DNA of 64,000 nt from Sphingorhabdus sp. Alg231-15 (GCF_900149705.1 NZ_LT703001.1:3528001-3592000); one strand, 5' to 3'; positions 7,813 through 13,877 are shown, counted from the stretch's first letter. Numbers and translations are program-made. The notes: generated by a model from the letters alone, not told the origin.

Positions 7813-10800
7813 GTGAATCTCAAGACCATATTTTTGTTTTCTCCGATCGCATTGCTGTCACCGATAATCTTTCCGGATGGCGCCATTGCACAGAAATTGA
7901 AGCGCACGGCTCCGCTTTCCGGACAGATAACGGCAACCAAGGGCGGCGAGCAAGCAACCTTGCGTCCGCGCGATAACTGGCAGCGGGCAGTGGTTCGTCA
8001 AGATCTGAAGGCAGGAGATGTCCTGCGCACCAAAGCGGCCGGAACACTGGCTATCGTTTTTGCCGACGGCACACAGGTGCGCCTGGGCAGAAACTCGGTC
8101 ATGGTCGTGCGGCGGGTGAACAAGAACGGGCCATCCACGCTGTCGCTTCAGCGCGGGCGGGCCTGGGGGCGAAGCCCGCGCAAGCGGTCCAATCTTTCGA
8201 TTGAAACCCCGTCTGCAACGGCGGCGATCAGGGGCACGGAATGGGCGATTAGCGCAGATGCGGATTCCAGCCAGCTGCAGGTGTTTTCAGGTATAGTCGA
8301 ACTGTCGAACGAGGCAGGATCGCTAACCGTTGAGGCGGGGCAGGCGGCAAGCGTCCGGCTTGGTCAGGCGCCAACGCGAACGGTATTGGCCAATCCGACC
8401 GGGCGCGAGCAAATGCTCTATTTCGTCAATCTGGCTGATGGGCTAGATATGCTTGGCAATAGCAGCGAGACATTTGTCGCAGCGCGCCGGGCAGTGGATG
8501 ATGGGGATTGGGAAACGGCTTCTCGCCTGTTTGACGCGCTCGTCCGGTCGGATGATCGTTCGGATCAAGCCGCAGGAATCTATGGCGGCTATGTTGCGGC
8601 AGTGCAGCTCGGTGAAGAGCCACCACCGCCGCTATTGGAGAATACGGCCGAGAGCTATCTAACGCTGAGCTTGATTGCGGCCTATGACGGCGACTTGCGC
8701 GCTTCGCAGAAAATCGCGGAACAAGGCCTGGAGGCGTTTCCGGACAATGTGTTGCTGTTCAAGGCAAAGGCAGATGTGGAAGCCATGCTCGGTGATGCTG
8801 ACGCCGCCATCGCGACCATCGCAGCGGCCCGTGCCGCCTATCCGGACGACGTGGCGCTCACGATCAGTGAAGCCGATCTGATGCGCGATTATCGGGGCAG
8901 CCCGAAGGCGGCGAGGGACATTCTTCAGCCGATCCTTGATACTGAACCGGAAAATATCATGGCCCAGAAATCACAGGCGAAAAACTGGATGGCCATTGGC
9001 GCGATGAAGGAGGCCAGTGAGCTTGTCGAAGAGGCGTTGGCGGCCCGACCTTATGATGCGGAATTGGTGAGCATGCGGGCGGAGATATTGCTGGAGCAGA
9101 ACAAATTGTCTGCCGCAAAGACAGAGATCGACAAGGCTCTGGAAATGGATCAGGGCAATGCGCTGGCGGGCAACGCGCTGGCGCAATATTGGCGGCGCAA
9201 GGATCGACTGGATCAGGCCTTGTCGGCATCGCTGGCCGCCTCCGCGCATAATCCGGACTATGGCAAGGGTTTTCTGGGCCTCGCACAGGTGCATTATGAA
9301 ATGGGCGATACAGACCTGGCCGAGCAGCAATTTGATGCTGCCGACCGGTTGGATCCGTTTAATCCGGCTATTCCTTTGGCCCGTACCGGCGTCGCCTTGC
9401 AAGAATTCGCGGCCGATGATGCGATCCGGAATGCCAGAGAAGCCCTGACCCGATATCGCGCGCGCGGCGGGGAATATGTCAATCTGTCAGAAAATCGTGA
9501 AACCGGGAGCCTCGTTTCGCAGGCCTTTCGCTTTCTCGATCTGGAGGGATGGGGTCGCTATTATGCCGACCGGGTATTCGACAGCTTCACACCATCAAGC
9601 TATTTCGATCAGGCGATCAACCAGACGCCGGGCCCTTTCCTGATCCGCAATGCCGATGGCAGCTATAACGCCCAGCAGGCGGAAAATAGTGGCGAGGGTG
9701 AAAGCTTTGAAGCGTTGTCGAGCTTCCTGCAAGGGGTGGCGCTAGACCCCTTGAGCGTTGCGAGTTCGCAGCGACGCTTGCGGTTCGACAATGGCAATTT
9801 CATCGAACCCTTTTTCGGTGCCTCTATCCTCGACGAAAATCTGCGCAATGAAAAGACGCTTAGTGGTGGACTGGATGGCATTTTTGATGCGCCGCTGCCC
9901 ACGGCTATCTGGCTACGCGGCAACTATACCGATATTTCCGACAATCGCCGACGCCCCGACATCAGCCCATTCTCGCGGCGGCGCGGTGGGGATAACTGGT
10001 TTTTTGGCGGTTATGTCGGACTGGAACTAACGCCGTCAGACAGTCTGGTTTTGAATGGCGAGTTGCAGCGCAATACGGACTTGTCCGAAACCAATGTGCT
10101 GGGTCTTTTGGACAATAGTTTCGCGCTGGAAGAAGACCGTGAGGTAGAAAGAAACTTTCTGTTCGGACTTTATAGTCACGAATTTGGCTATCGCGATCAG
10201 CTCACGATCGGGGCCGGTTTTGGCCGGTCGCAGCTAAATCTGGTCTCGATCGATACGACCAGCACGCTGCCCTTTGCCGACCAGTTGGCGCAAAGCCGCG
10301 GGACGTTCACCTATTTCAGCGCCAACTATGCCAAGGGCCTTGGTCCTGTGGATCTGCGGATCGGCGGGGAGTGGAGCGATGTACGCACCCGTGAACTGCG
10401 TTCCGCCTTTGATTTCGCACAAGATAATTTTGCGCCGGGTGTCGTGCCAACCCGTTTCGATCTGCGCACGACGGAGGCACGGGCCTATGTCGATTTGCGC
10501 TACCATCCGATCGAGCCGCTCGTGCTTCAGGGGCAGTTGGAGGCAACCGCCCGCACCATCGCTGGGGATACGCGCTATCCTTTCAACTTTCGTTTCGGTG
10601 CCTCCTACGAGCTCGTCGAGGGTCACTGGCTGCGCGCCGCCTTCCTACGCCAGAGCCGCGGACTGTTTGATTTCAGCTTCCGGCCCGCCGCTGTGGTCGG
10701 TTTACAGGCCAATTCCGTCCCCAGCTTTCGCCAAAGCCGCAATGACAGCGTGATTGTGCGCTGGGATGCGGAATGGTCTGACAATCTGTTCACGACCGTT

Positions 10801-11376
10801 GAATATCAGGATCAGCAACTGGAGGCAGTGCAATATGCTGTTCCCGATCTGCCGGTGGACATTACCGGCTTTCCGGTTTCGGTGAAACGGATCAGCGCGG
10901 AAGCCAATCTGTGGCTGGGCGGCAATATCGGCCTGCGGGCTTCCTATGCCTATACGGACAGCGCGATTGAGGGCAGCTTCGTTTCCGGCGACAATGTCAA
11001 CCAGGCGATTGGGCCGACTTTCGGTTGCGCGACCGCAGACCTGAACTTCACCTTCGGTTGCACCTATGAATTGGGTGACAAGCTGCCCTTTGTTCCTGGT
11101 CATTTTGCAAGGGCCTCGCTGGTCTGGAGCCTGCCAGCGCCGCTCCGACTGAAAGCGACATTATCGGGCAGCTATATTGGCGGACAGGACGATGACTTAG
11201 GCCTGTCTGTTGAAGATGTCGCGCTGGTTGATGCCCGGCTGGAGTGGGAACCACTGGACCAGCGGTTCGCGGTCAATCTTTCGCTGCTCAACCTGCTCGA
11301 CAAGCGTTATGACTCCGCCACTGATGTTGCTGCACCGCGATTGACCGTGGTCGCGGGCGTCGAGGTTCGGTTCTGA
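7813..11376 (+). CDS. FecR-domain / TPR / outer-membrane beta-barrel protein
   Basis: A very large 1187-residue envelope protein. It begins with a signal peptide (about residues 1-26, ending GAIAQ). A FecR-type domain follows at about 60-180, with the typical DGTQVRLGRNS, a hydrophobic strand series, and IRGTEWAI. Residues about 210-560 form helical TPR-like repeats with A-x-A-rich pairs and LDPFNPAIPLA. From about 600 to the end there are alternating aromatic strands, ending VVAGVEVRF; a terminal phenylalanine is typical for BAM-inserted outer-membrane barrels. The start is GTG 7813. One base separates its stop from the CHASE2 adenylate cyclase, so the two are surely co-transcribed. A role as an outer-membrane-anchored sensor or adaptor for the cyclase is inferred. 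Confidence 0.88.
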   Translation: MNLKTIFLFSPIALLSPIIFPDGAIAQKLKRTAPLSGQITATKGGEQATLRPRDNWQRAVVRQDLKAGDVLRTKAAGTLAIVFADGTQVRLGRNSVMVVRRVNKNGPSTLSLQRGRAWGRSPRKRSNLSIETPSATAAIRGTEWAISADADSSQLQVFSGIVELSNEAGSLTVEAGQAASVRLGQAPTRTVLANPTGREQMLYFVNLADGLDMLGNSSETFVAARRAVDDGDWETASRLFDALVRSDDRSDQAAGIYGGYVAAVQLGEEPPPPLLENTAESYLTLSLIAAYDGDLRASQKIAEQGLEAFPDNVLLFKAKADVEAMLGDADAAIATIAAARAAYPDDVALTISEADLMRDYRGSPKAARDILQPILDTEPENIMAQKSQAKNWMAIGAMKEASELVEEALAARPYDAELVSMRAEILLEQNKLSAAKTEIDKALEMDQGNALAGNALAQYWRRKDRLDQALSASLAASAHNPDYGKGFLGLAQVHYEMGDTDLAEQQFDAADRLDPFNPAIPLARTGVALQEFAADDAIRNAREALTRYRARGGEYVNLSENRETGSLVSQAFRFLDLEGWGRYYADRVFDSFTPSSYFDQAINQTPGPFLIRNADGSYNAQQAENSGEGESFEALSSFLQGVALDPLSVASSQRRLRFDNGNFIEPFFGASILDENLRNEKTLSGGLDGIFDAPLPTAIWLRGNYTDISDNRRRPDISPFSRRRGGDNWFFGGYVGLELTPSDSLVLNGELQRNTDLSETNVLGLLDNSFALEEDREVERNFLFGLYSHEFGYRDQLTIGAGFGRSQLNLVSIDTTSTLPFADQLAQSRGTFTYFSANYAKGLGPVDLRIGGEWSDVRTRELRSAFDFAQDNFAPGVVPTRFDLRTTEARAYVDLRYHPIEPLVLQGQLEATARTIAGDTRYPFNFRFGASYELVEGHWLRAAFLRQSRGLFDFSFRPAAVVGLQANSVPSFRQSRNDSVIVRWDAEWSDNLFTTVEYQDQQLEAVQYAVPDLPVDITGFPVSVKRISAEANLWLGGNIGLRASYAYTDSAIEGSFVSGDNVNQAIGPTFGCATADLNFTFGCTYELGDKLPFVPGHFARASLVWSLPAPLRLKATLSGSYIGGQDDDLGLSVEDVALVDARLEWEPLDQRFAVNLSLLNLLDKRYDSATDVAAPRLTVVAGVEVRF

Positions 11377-11377
11377 T

Positions 11378-13165
11378 ATGGCCGAGCCCCGGATCACCGC
11401 TATGCTTTCACCCCGCCACAGGTTTTCCGGGGTGTTGTTGGTTGCCGTGGTTGCGCTGCTGATGGCCTTGCTGAGCCTGTCCACCTTCATGCGCGATCTT
11501 GACGGGCGCAGTTTCGATTATTTGTCGACAGCTGCGCCGACGCTGCCCGAACAACCGGGGATCACGCTAATCGCGATTGATGAACCGAGCATGGATGCCA
11601 TCGGGCAGCAATGGCCGTGGCGGCGTTCGCAACATGCCGAACTGATCGGTCAGCTCCGTAAAGCCGGGACCAAGGCGATCGCTTTCGATGTGCTTTTTGC
11701 CGAGCCATCGGACGAGGCAGAGGACCAGGCGCTGGTCGCCGCGATGGGGCCGGATATTGTTCTCGCCGCTGATGAAAGCCTGATCGAGCGTCCTTATGGC
11801 AGCACGTTGGTGCGCACCGAACCGATGGCAGAGCTGATCGCAGGCGGTGCCCGCTCCGGTATTGCAAGCCTGTCGATGGATGGCGACGGCGTCCTGCGCA
11901 ACATGCCAATATACAGGGACGGCTTCATGACGACGCTGTTCGAACTGGCTGACGGGACACCCGCACCGCAAAGCGAAACGGTCCGCCGGATCCAGCATTT
12001 TGGTGCCGCGGGCAGCTATCCCACAATTTCCTATTATCAGGCGCTGGACCCCGAGGCCTATCTGCCACCGAACTATCTCAAGGACCAGATTGTGGTGATC
12101 GGTTTTGCCTTGCAGACCAATGCGGATGTTGCGACAGGCGGGATCGACGCTTTCGAAACCGCCTATACATTACGATCGCGTCAGCTCACCCCGGGCATAG
12201 AGGTGCAGGCCACGATTTTTGACAATCTCCGCACCGGGCTGTCGATCAGCATATCGCCACCTTGGCTATCGTTTGTGGTGATCGCTCTTGCTAGCGCGCT
12301 CGCGCTGCTGGTGTCTCGTCCGAAGGCGCCGGGCCGAAAGGCATTACTGCTAGCCCTGGCTTTATTGGCGATCATCGGCGGATCATGGCTGGTGCTGCAA
12401 TTCGGGCGTTTCTGGATTGGACCGGTGGCTCCGTCTGCTGCATTGGTGCTTAGTGTGGTCGCCATTGCCACGCGCGACTTTGCCGGCGAACAAAGACGCG
12501 GACGCGAAGTCCAGAATGCCTTTGGCCAATATCTCGCCCCCGAATTGGTGCAGAAAATCGCCGATGATCCTGAATTGCTCAATCTCGGTGGGGTCAATCG
12601 CGAGCTGACCATATTATTTTCCGACATTCGTGGCTTCACCTCCATTGCGGAAGCGATGAAGGATGATCCGCAAGGGTTGACGCGAATGATCAATGCGATC
12701 CTTACGCCGCTGTCGAACATCATTCTCAGCCATGGCGGCACGATTGACAAATATATGGGCGATTGCGTCATGGCCTTCTGGAATGCGCCGCTGGACGATC
12801 CCGATCATGCCCTGCACGCGCTGGAAGCAGCGCAAGAGATGCTCGCGGAAATGGACAATATCAATCAGGCAATTCAGACGATGTTGCCTGAGGGCGCCAA
12901 TGTGCCGGTGATCCGCATGGGCATTGGCATCAACACGGGAACATGCGTGGTCGGCAATATGGGGTCGGACCGCCGGTTCGACTATTCGGTGCTCGGCGAT
13001 GCTGTAAACCTAGCCTCACGCCTTGAGGGACAATGTGAAGAACAGCGTGTCGACATATTGATCGGACAAACCACGGTCAGCGCTGCGCCGTCATTCACCT
13101 TCAGAAAAGTGGCGGATATCCAGGTCAAAGGCCGATCCGCGACAGAACCGACCTATAGCTTTTGA
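11378..13165 (+). CDS. CHASE2-domain class III adenylate cyclase
   Basis: A 595-residue membrane-bound nucleotide cyclase. One N-terminal helix is followed by an extracytoplasmic CHASE2 sensor (about 40-290, with AIDEPSMDAIGQQWPWRR and AFDVLFAEPS). Three further helices (about 290-365) lead to a C-terminal catalytic domain. Metal-binding aspartates are in LFSDIRGFTS (near 416) and YMGDCVMAFW. The adenine-selecting Lys is in DKYMGD, and the transition-state Asn and Arg lie in GDAVNLASRLEG. All residues needed for a homodimeric adenylate cyclase are present, so it should be active and make cAMP. It starts one base after the FecR-TPR-barrel gene. Ligand is unknown. Confidence 0.92.
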   Translation: MAEPRITAMLSPRHRFSGVLLVAVVALLMALLSLSTFMRDLDGRSFDYLSTAAPTLPEQPGITLIAIDEPSMDAIGQQWPWRRSQHAELIGQLRKAGTKAIAFDVLFAEPSDEAEDQALVAAMGPDIVLAADESLIERPYGSTLVRTEPMAELIAGGARSGIASLSMDGDGVLRNMPIYRDGFMTTLFELADGTPAPQSETVRRIQHFGAAGSYPTISYYQALDPEAYLPPNYLKDQIVVIGFALQTNADVATGGIDAFETAYTLRSRQLTPGIEVQATIFDNLRTGLSISISPPWLSFVVIALASALALLVSRPKAPGRKALLLALALLAIIGGSWLVLQFGRFWIGPVAPSAALVLSVVAIATRDFAGEQRRGREVQNAFGQYLAPELVQKIADDPELLNLGGVNRELTILFSDIRGFTSIAEAMKDDPQGLTRMINAILTPLSNIILSHGGTIDKYMGDCVMAFWNAPLDDPDHALHALEAAQEMLAEMDNINQAIQTMLPEGANVPVIRMGIGINTGTCVVGNMGSDRRFDYSVLGDAVNLASRLEGQCEEQRVDILIGQTTVSAAPSFTFRKVADIQVKGRSATEPTYSF

Positions 13166-13201
13166 ACAATGTATCAGATCGGGACAGCCAATTGCGCTTT
13201 T

Positions 13202-13222
13202 CCAAGAAACCCTTGGGTTTTT
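13202..13222 (+). terminator. Possible rho-independent terminator after the cyclase
   Basis: A five-pair stem CCAAG (13202-13206) / CTTGG (13212-13216) with a five-base loop is followed by G and five T. The stem is short but the T-run is well placed, 37 bases after the cyclase stop. Confidence 0.4.
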
Positions 13223-13254: not shown

Positions 13255-13319
13255 CGCAATATTTTTTGGCCGATAGGCCTACCAGTGACGAGAAGTCAGT
13301 GGGAAAAGTGGGGGAAGTT

Positions 13320-13877
13320 ATGAAAAAATATCTATTGGCTGCGGCGGCAGCTGCATGTCTGTCAGTGCCAAGTGTGGCCAGCGCGGCAATCATTACCGAG
13401 ACGCTTGGAATCACGGGCAGCGATTATCAGCTCTCGTTCGGTGATCCATCGGCCAGTCCGGTTGATCCAACATCCATCATATTTTCGGTGACCTTCGACA
13501 ACAGCGCGGATATTTCCGGAACAACCACGGGTTTGAATATCCTTTCAGCGACCCTGCCTTATGCGGCTCAATTCGCATATAGCAGCGGCTCGGACACTTT
13601 GACTCTCGCCACAAATGCCAATCCTAACTCTTGCGGAAATCCTGCAGAATCTTTCTGCATTTTTATCAATAGTTTTTCCACGGCACCTAATGCGAGTTTT
13701 GTGCAGCAATCAACCGCAAGCGGCGGATATTGGCGGGCAAACACGGTAGCAACCTCTGCTGTTCCCGAGCCAGCCACATGGGCGTTCATGATCCTCGGCT
13801 TTGGTGCCATGGGCGGCACGCTGAGATCAAATGGGCGACGCCAGCGTAAAGCCAATGTGAAGGTCAGCTACGCTTAA
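13320..13877 (+). CDS. PEPxxWA-CTERM sorting-domain exported protein
   Basis: A 185-residue exported protein. The signal peptide MKKYLLAAAAAACL ends around SVASA (residue 22). The mature part is rich in Ser, Thr, Asn and beta-type sequence, with one cysteine pair (NSCGNPAESFC). The C-terminus has VPEPATWAFMILGFG followed by Gly and an Arg-rich tail, the PEPxxWA-CTERM tripartite signal that exosortase/archaeosortase-like proteases recognise in sphingomonads. Such proteins are often linked to exopolysaccharide or the cell surface. No exosortase lies in the window. The start at 13320 follows GGGGGAAG; the open frame from 13266 adds no plausible signal peptide. A terminator follows. Confidence 0.85.
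   Translation: MKKYLLAAAAAACLSVPSVASAAIITETLGITGSDYQLSFGDPSASPVDPTSIIFSVTFDNSADISGTTTGLNILSATLPYAAQFAYSSGSDTLTLATNANPNSCGNPAESFCIFINSFSTAPNASFVQQSTASGGYWRANTVATSAVPEPATWAFMILGFGAMGGTLRSNGRRQRKANVKVSYA

Follow-up and report, generated by a model that had tools for sequence, protein, structure and literature searches.

A predicted NsrA-CyaK-type receptor-cyclase pair in the sphingomonad Sphingorhabdus sp. Alg231-15

The closest described relative of the gene pair discussed here comes from S. meliloti. In that bacterium NsrA is an outer-membrane receptor required in CyaK-dependent cAMP signalling (PMC7529298, PMC13001267). Perception of signal 1 requires both NsrA and CyaK, and both are needed for the cAMP response (PMC7529298). 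In a bioassay the pathway is triggered by the ribosomal protein uL2 of Medicago or E. coli (PMC7529298), and raised cAMP activates the Clr regulon (PMC13001267).

CHASE2 and FecR proteins have also been described together elsewhere. In Campylobacterota, gene clusters with a CHASE2 cyclase also contain a phosphodiesterase, a TPR protein, and an outer-membrane protein with FecR (PMC9239204). The BiofilmReg operon of Burkholderia consists of a response regulator, a LysM-FecR protein, and a CHASE2 histidine kinase (PMC5192318).

Here, we describe two neighboring genes of Sphingorhabdus sp. Alg231-15. The “window” is the whole 64,000-nucleotide stretch of DNA that was analyzed (GCF_900149705.1, NZ_LT703001.1:3528001-3592000), and all positions below are counted from its first letter unless stated otherwise. 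The features are as follows:

7813-11376, plus strand: nsrA-like gene for a putative outer-membrane receptor of 1187 amino acids (open reading frame with signal peptide, FecR, TPR superhelix, and predicted 22-strand barrel)
7813-7890, plus strand: putative signal peptide, residues 1 to ~26 (...GAIAQ), from hydropathy; residues 1-27 have low model confidence
7903-8427, plus strand: periplasmic beta domain of FecR type and its flanks, residues 31-205, where the receptor is most conserved
8428-9477, plus strand: predicted TPR helical superhelix, residues 206-555, of varying length among relatives
9478-9777, plus strand: linker of short helices leading to the barrel, residues 556-655, the place of the plug in a TonB-dependent receptor
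9778-11373, plus strand: predicted outer-membrane barrel of 22 strands, TonB-dependent-receptor type, residues 656-1187, from the predicted model, fold matches, and family-level profiles
11378-13165, plus strand: cyaK-like gene for a CHASE2 class III adenylate cyclase of 595 amino acids (open reading frame; four predicted transmembrane helices)
11498-12277, plus strand: CHASE2 periplasmic sensor domain, cyclase residues ~41-300, from Pfam and the model
12593-13147, plus strand: class III cyclase catalytic domain, residues 406-590, with D416, K458, D462, N544, and R548, from Pfam and conservation
13201-13217, plus strand: terminator-like hairpin, 36 bases past the cyclase stop codon, by consensus match only

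The receptor reading frame opens with a GTG start codon and a hydrophobic stretch resembling a signal peptide, and it closes with ...VEVRF. In the Pfam scan, residues 69-163 match FecR (E 6e-16) and the stretch from 284 to 516 holds matches to several TPR models, so that FecR, TPR, and a C-terminal outer-membrane barrel (the last by prediction) lie in a single secreted protein. All the parts that had been predicted for this 1187-residue product are present: signal peptide, FecR-type domain, TPR-like repeats, and a terminal phenylalanine. The complete CHASE2 adenylate cyclase expected one base downstream is there as well, with both domains and intact catalytic residues. Although the title of the original prediction spoke of “fused” proteins, these are two separate genes lying side by side. 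Both are on the plus strand with an intergenic gap of one base, and they are probably one operon. Directly upstream of 7813, a promoter scan detected nothing resembling a sigma-70 site, and a phage search gave no match. Right after the pair, at 13266-13877, lies a gene for a protein with a PEPxxWA-CTERM sorting signal, which sits beside the pair only in the nearest relative.

The identity of the pair became apparent from a tblastn search of a plasmid collection, where rhizobial megaplasmids, including pSymB of S. meliloti, match both proteins with their order kept. In one record (CP140934.1) the annotation names the genes nsrA and cyaK, and the two share a one-base overlap. The receptor is about 30-33% identical to NsrA of S. 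meliloti, and the cyclase is 49% identical to CyaK. When the S. meliloti proteins are compared with nine CHASE2- and FecR-cluster proteins of the Sphingorhabdus genome, the separation is wide: CyaK scores 508 bits to the window cyclase and 152 to the next protein, and NsrA scores 427 bits to the window receptor and 42 to the next. Only one long NsrA homologue occurs in this genome. Judged by their sequences, the two genes of the window are homologous to nsrA and cyaK of S. meliloti and co-linear with them; they are thus a known kind of system, here in a sphingomonad.

The two pairs share touching genes, gene order, and domain order; in Pfam, NsrA of S. meliloti has FecR and then TPR, as does the window receptor. 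They also differ. The TPR region of the window receptor is ~63 residues shorter than that of S. meliloti NsrA (350 vs. 413), its barrel region is less acidic (D+E 70 and K+R 48, vs. 78 and 38), and the C-terminal tail is longer in the rhizobial cyclase. S. meliloti, in which output is through Clr, is a plant symbiont, whereas the host of the window pair is a sphingomonad with no known plant signal. Because identity between the window barrel and rhizobial barrels is only 24-28%, the ligand of the window receptor may differ from that of S. meliloti.

It follows that the combination of a FecR-barrel protein with a CHASE2 cyclase, which had been put forward as new, has already been described as the NsrA-CyaK pair. 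What was proposed of its nature, an envelope-to-cAMP system in which a CHASE2 cyclase gene follows that of an outer-membrane barrel protein, has good support and agrees with S. meliloti genetics (PMC7529298). A pair studied in legume symbiosis that is also found in sphingomonads and other bacteria probably has a basic job that is not symbiotic. Perhaps two points are worth keeping beyond the identification: the class of the barrel, in which no plug is detected, and the general pairing of FecR with CHASE2.

The Campylobacterota clusters (PMC9239204) resemble the window in having a CHASE2 cyclase beside a FecR-domain outer-membrane protein and TPR; there, however, TPR and FecR are encoded separately and the cluster includes a phosphodiesterase, whereas in the window FecR, TPR, and barrel form one polypeptide. 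In Burkholderia BiofilmReg a periplasmic FecR protein is likewise encoded just upstream of a CHASE2 receptor, but the output is a histidine kinase, the FecR protein carries LysM, and there is no barrel.

Within the 595-residue cyclase, Pfam recognizes CHASE2 at residues 25-310 (E 5e-38) and the class III cyclase domain at 409-589 (E 5e-24). Across 52 sequences, D416, D462, K458, N544, and R548 never vary, and position 537 always holds a serine. We take D416 and D462 to be the two metal aspartates, N544 and R548 the transition-state pair, and K458 the purine lysine; serine 537 presumably occupies the position of an aspartate found in many adenylate cyclases. On sequence grounds, we read the protein as a IIIb-type adenylate cyclase. 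In a sequence search, P. aeruginosa CyaB is among the nearest solved cyclase domains; this search returned no solved CHASE2 structure, and its matches covered the cyclase domain. In the predicted model (pLDDT 85, pTM 0.62) one long helix precedes CHASE2 and three follow, the last of which continues into the cytoplasmic part. The layout of a CHASE2 receptor is therefore present in the model, from extracytoplasmic CHASE2 through transmembrane helices to an output domain.

The AlphaFold model of the receptor, built from 61 sequences, has a pLDDT of 84.8 and a pTM of 0.84. It places beta strands at residues 35-191 (FecR), helices at 198-550 (TPR), and a barrel of 22 long strands at 663-1186, counted on the DSSP string. 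An outer-membrane barrel had been proposed for the C-terminus, and its absence from the last 550 residues would have spoken against the idea; a barrel is confidently predicted there. When the model is compared with the PDB by Foldseek, each of the 50 top matches is either a TonB-dependent outer-membrane receptor or a model of one, and VIA-align gives Z of about 18-20 over 405-490 residues against BtuB, FhuA, and FecA.

Sequence evidence for this class is found at the level of the family. A profile of the barrel region matches solved TonB-dependent-receptor members (best E 4e-7), and PF00593 is matched by 10 of 36 relatives (best 4.6e-20), although the window receptor searched singly gives no match to it. 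A Pfam scan with E up to 1 found no plug family in the window receptor, and none was found in four relatives (E 0.001). Predicted structure and family-level sequence both put the barrel in the TonB-dependent-receptor class; a plug is not detected. The receptor is thus like BtuB, FhuA, and FecA in its predicted 22-strand barrel; it differs from them in that no plug is detected and FecR and TPR form its N-terminal half. The suggestion that the protein may import something is unsupported, because no plug is detected in this TonB-dependent-receptor-like barrel.

How tightly do the two genes travel together? A scan for relatives, with one genome per species, gave 441 stretches, and the best 80 of these yielded 74 loci. 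The cyclase lies directly downstream of the receptor in 72 of these 74, mostly with an overlap of 1-4 bases or a gap of a few bases. Two loci (L099 and L104) hold full-length NsrA homologues with no adjoining cyclase, and the species of L099 has a second, complete pair (L108). Among 150 genomes of the window's family, a long receptor homologue is present in five (G000, G002, G011, G093, and G121); the cyclase (E below 1e-100) is present in exactly the same five, always adjoining the receptor. The check suggested at the outset, adjacency of the genes in relatives, therefore comes out in favor of the pair. Receptor and cyclase trees are correlated (r = 0.92), with none of 1000 permutations as high. 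The outer neighbors are not kept beyond close relatives; the conserved unit is the two genes.

Some loci carry additional genes. In Microvirga zambiensis (L075:6001-13554) there are apparently two tandem receptor copies before one cyclase. In G093 the end of a gene for an SpdA/CpdA-like metallophosphoesterase (L039:4451-5296) overlaps the end of the cyclase gene; this protein is closest to a rhizobial SpdA model, far below the model cut-off, and such a phosphodiesterase was not found beside the pair at other loci.

Which part of the receptor addresses CHASE2? Conservation is very unevenly spread. Of 51 invariant receptor columns, 23 are in the FecR domain, where they make up 24% of positions; the invariant share is 1.4% in the TPR region and 1.9% in the barrel. 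The TPR region has 350 residues in most of the sphingomonads compared, ~413 in rhizobia, and 111 in L039, and since the L039 receptor has lost most of this region, TPR is not a constant part.

FecR is also found with CHASE2 well beyond this pair. In the Sphingorhabdus genome a FecR gene precedes three of the four CHASE2 genes, namely the window cyclase, a histidine kinase (with a LysM-FecR protein), and an EAL protein. We extended the count to 31 genomes from across the phylum, selected because they contain CHASE2, and to the 75 best-scoring CHASE2 genes listed for them, so that the numbers are approximate. A FecR gene lies upstream, in the same direction and within 5 kb, of 27 of these 75 (about 0.14 expected), and 10 more have a FecR gene nearby in another arrangement. 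In nine genomes of the order, approximately 8 of 19 listed CHASE2 genes show the pairing. It spans the outputs cyclase, kinase, and EAL.

The part of the receptor that addresses CHASE2 is probably FecR, given its invariance, the variability of TPR, and the pairing of FecR with CHASE2 whatever the output, none of which is proof; that the two touch directly is what the gene pairing suggests. The signal could instead reach CHASE2 through another protein. Mirror-tree partial correlations were also considered as a hint to the interface and gave nothing useful: at 0.10-0.13 for FecR-CHASE2 and 0.45-0.51 for barrel-CHASE2, they do not single out or favor FecR-CHASE2. The value of the gene-pairing result is that it flags FecR as the probable counterpart of CHASE2, a sensor domain with few known signals.

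Taken together with the S. meliloti work, these data point to the following mechanism. The receptor would be anchored in the outer membrane by its TonB-dependent-receptor-type barrel, the loops of which would meet an external ligand. The TPR superhelix, carrying FecR, would extend through the periplasm toward the inner membrane, and ligand binding would alter how FecR engages the CHASE2 sensor of the cyclase. The change would travel via the transmembrane helices and the signaling helix to the cytoplasmic cyclase, with control running, as we infer, from receptor to cyclase, and the cAMP made would serve a Crp-family regulator. We consider it highly probable that the window genes encode an NsrA-CyaK-type transenvelope receptor acting in this way. 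The mechanism originally proposed was of the right kind and finds support in experimental work on the S. meliloti homologues; the novelty of the combination is not borne out, and the idea of import has no support.

Other explanations deserve a fair hearing. The barrel might be a nutrient transporter or channel, with the cyclase sensing the substrate alone via CHASE2 and making no contact with the receptor. Known members of the TonB-dependent-receptor class are mostly importers, and the higher mirror-tree partial correlation of barrel with CHASE2 than of FecR with CHASE2 would fit; but we think this quite unlikely for a receptor in which no plug domain is detected, beside a pair that keeps no further gene. 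FecR, moreover, is the most conserved part and would be needless for a mere channel, and barrel-less FecR proteins are likewise paired with CHASE2. Another possibility is that what the receptor mainly reports through FecR and CHASE2 is the state of the envelope, for example barrel assembly or damage to the outer membrane, rather than a soluble ligand from outside. The factors recognized by CHASE2 domains have been described as unknown (PMC5192318), and an obvious ligand-binding part is lacking from several of the FecR proteins paired with CHASE2, the LysM-FecR protein of this genome among them. We regard this as very unlikely, however, given that in S. meliloti a purified protein added from outside triggers the pathway through NsrA and CyaK (PMC7529298), which points to an external ligand.

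The combination of a PF04773 FecR domain with a TonB-dependent-receptor-type barrel may also bring to mind classical FecA-FecR-FecI cell-surface signaling, in which case FecR would be an anti-sigma factor and the cyclase an unrelated neighbor. This has next to no probability in our view, and we reject membership in that system: both gene linkage and architecture contradict it, FecR sitting in a secreted protein without a transmembrane anti-sigma part, and the constant neighbor being the cyclase (at 72 of 74 loci from the best 80 of 441 stretches).

For the NsrA-CyaK-type receptor that we prefer, a broader speculation can be offered. FecR could be a general periplasmic key for CHASE2; in NsrA-type proteins FecR could have replaced the plug, turning an importer into a pure signal receptor, and the sphingomonad receptor might sense debris of lysed cells, for example free uL2. 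As a whole, we hold this to be rather unlikely.

With respect to the regulator at the end of the pathway, the Sphingorhabdus genome has 11 cNMP-binding matches, and one Crp-like protein has a canonical phosphate-binding cassette, GEIALLDGGERTASVTA. A Crp/Fnr-family cNMP-binding match lies at C1:3527548-3527778 of this genome, ~8 kb upstream of the pair and just outside the window.

The remaining CHASE2 loci of this genome can be noted briefly. At C1 1336500-1345000 (L043:1079-7033) a gene for a secreted CHAT-TPR protein overlaps that of a second CHASE2 cyclase by one base, and a 271-amino acid secreted protein with no Pfam match follows this cyclase. At C1 125000-134000 (L042:2222-6098) a FecR protein containing a long tract of DDDQGD repeats is encoded directly upstream of a CHASE2-EAL protein; upstream of the FecR gene lies a divergent gene for an outer-membrane-protein-like product (L042 353-2050, minus strand). 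Finally, at C1 3014000-3022500 (L041:1706-6123) a response regulator, a LysM-FecR protein, and a CHASE2-PAS histidine kinase stand in a row, which is the BiofilmReg layout.
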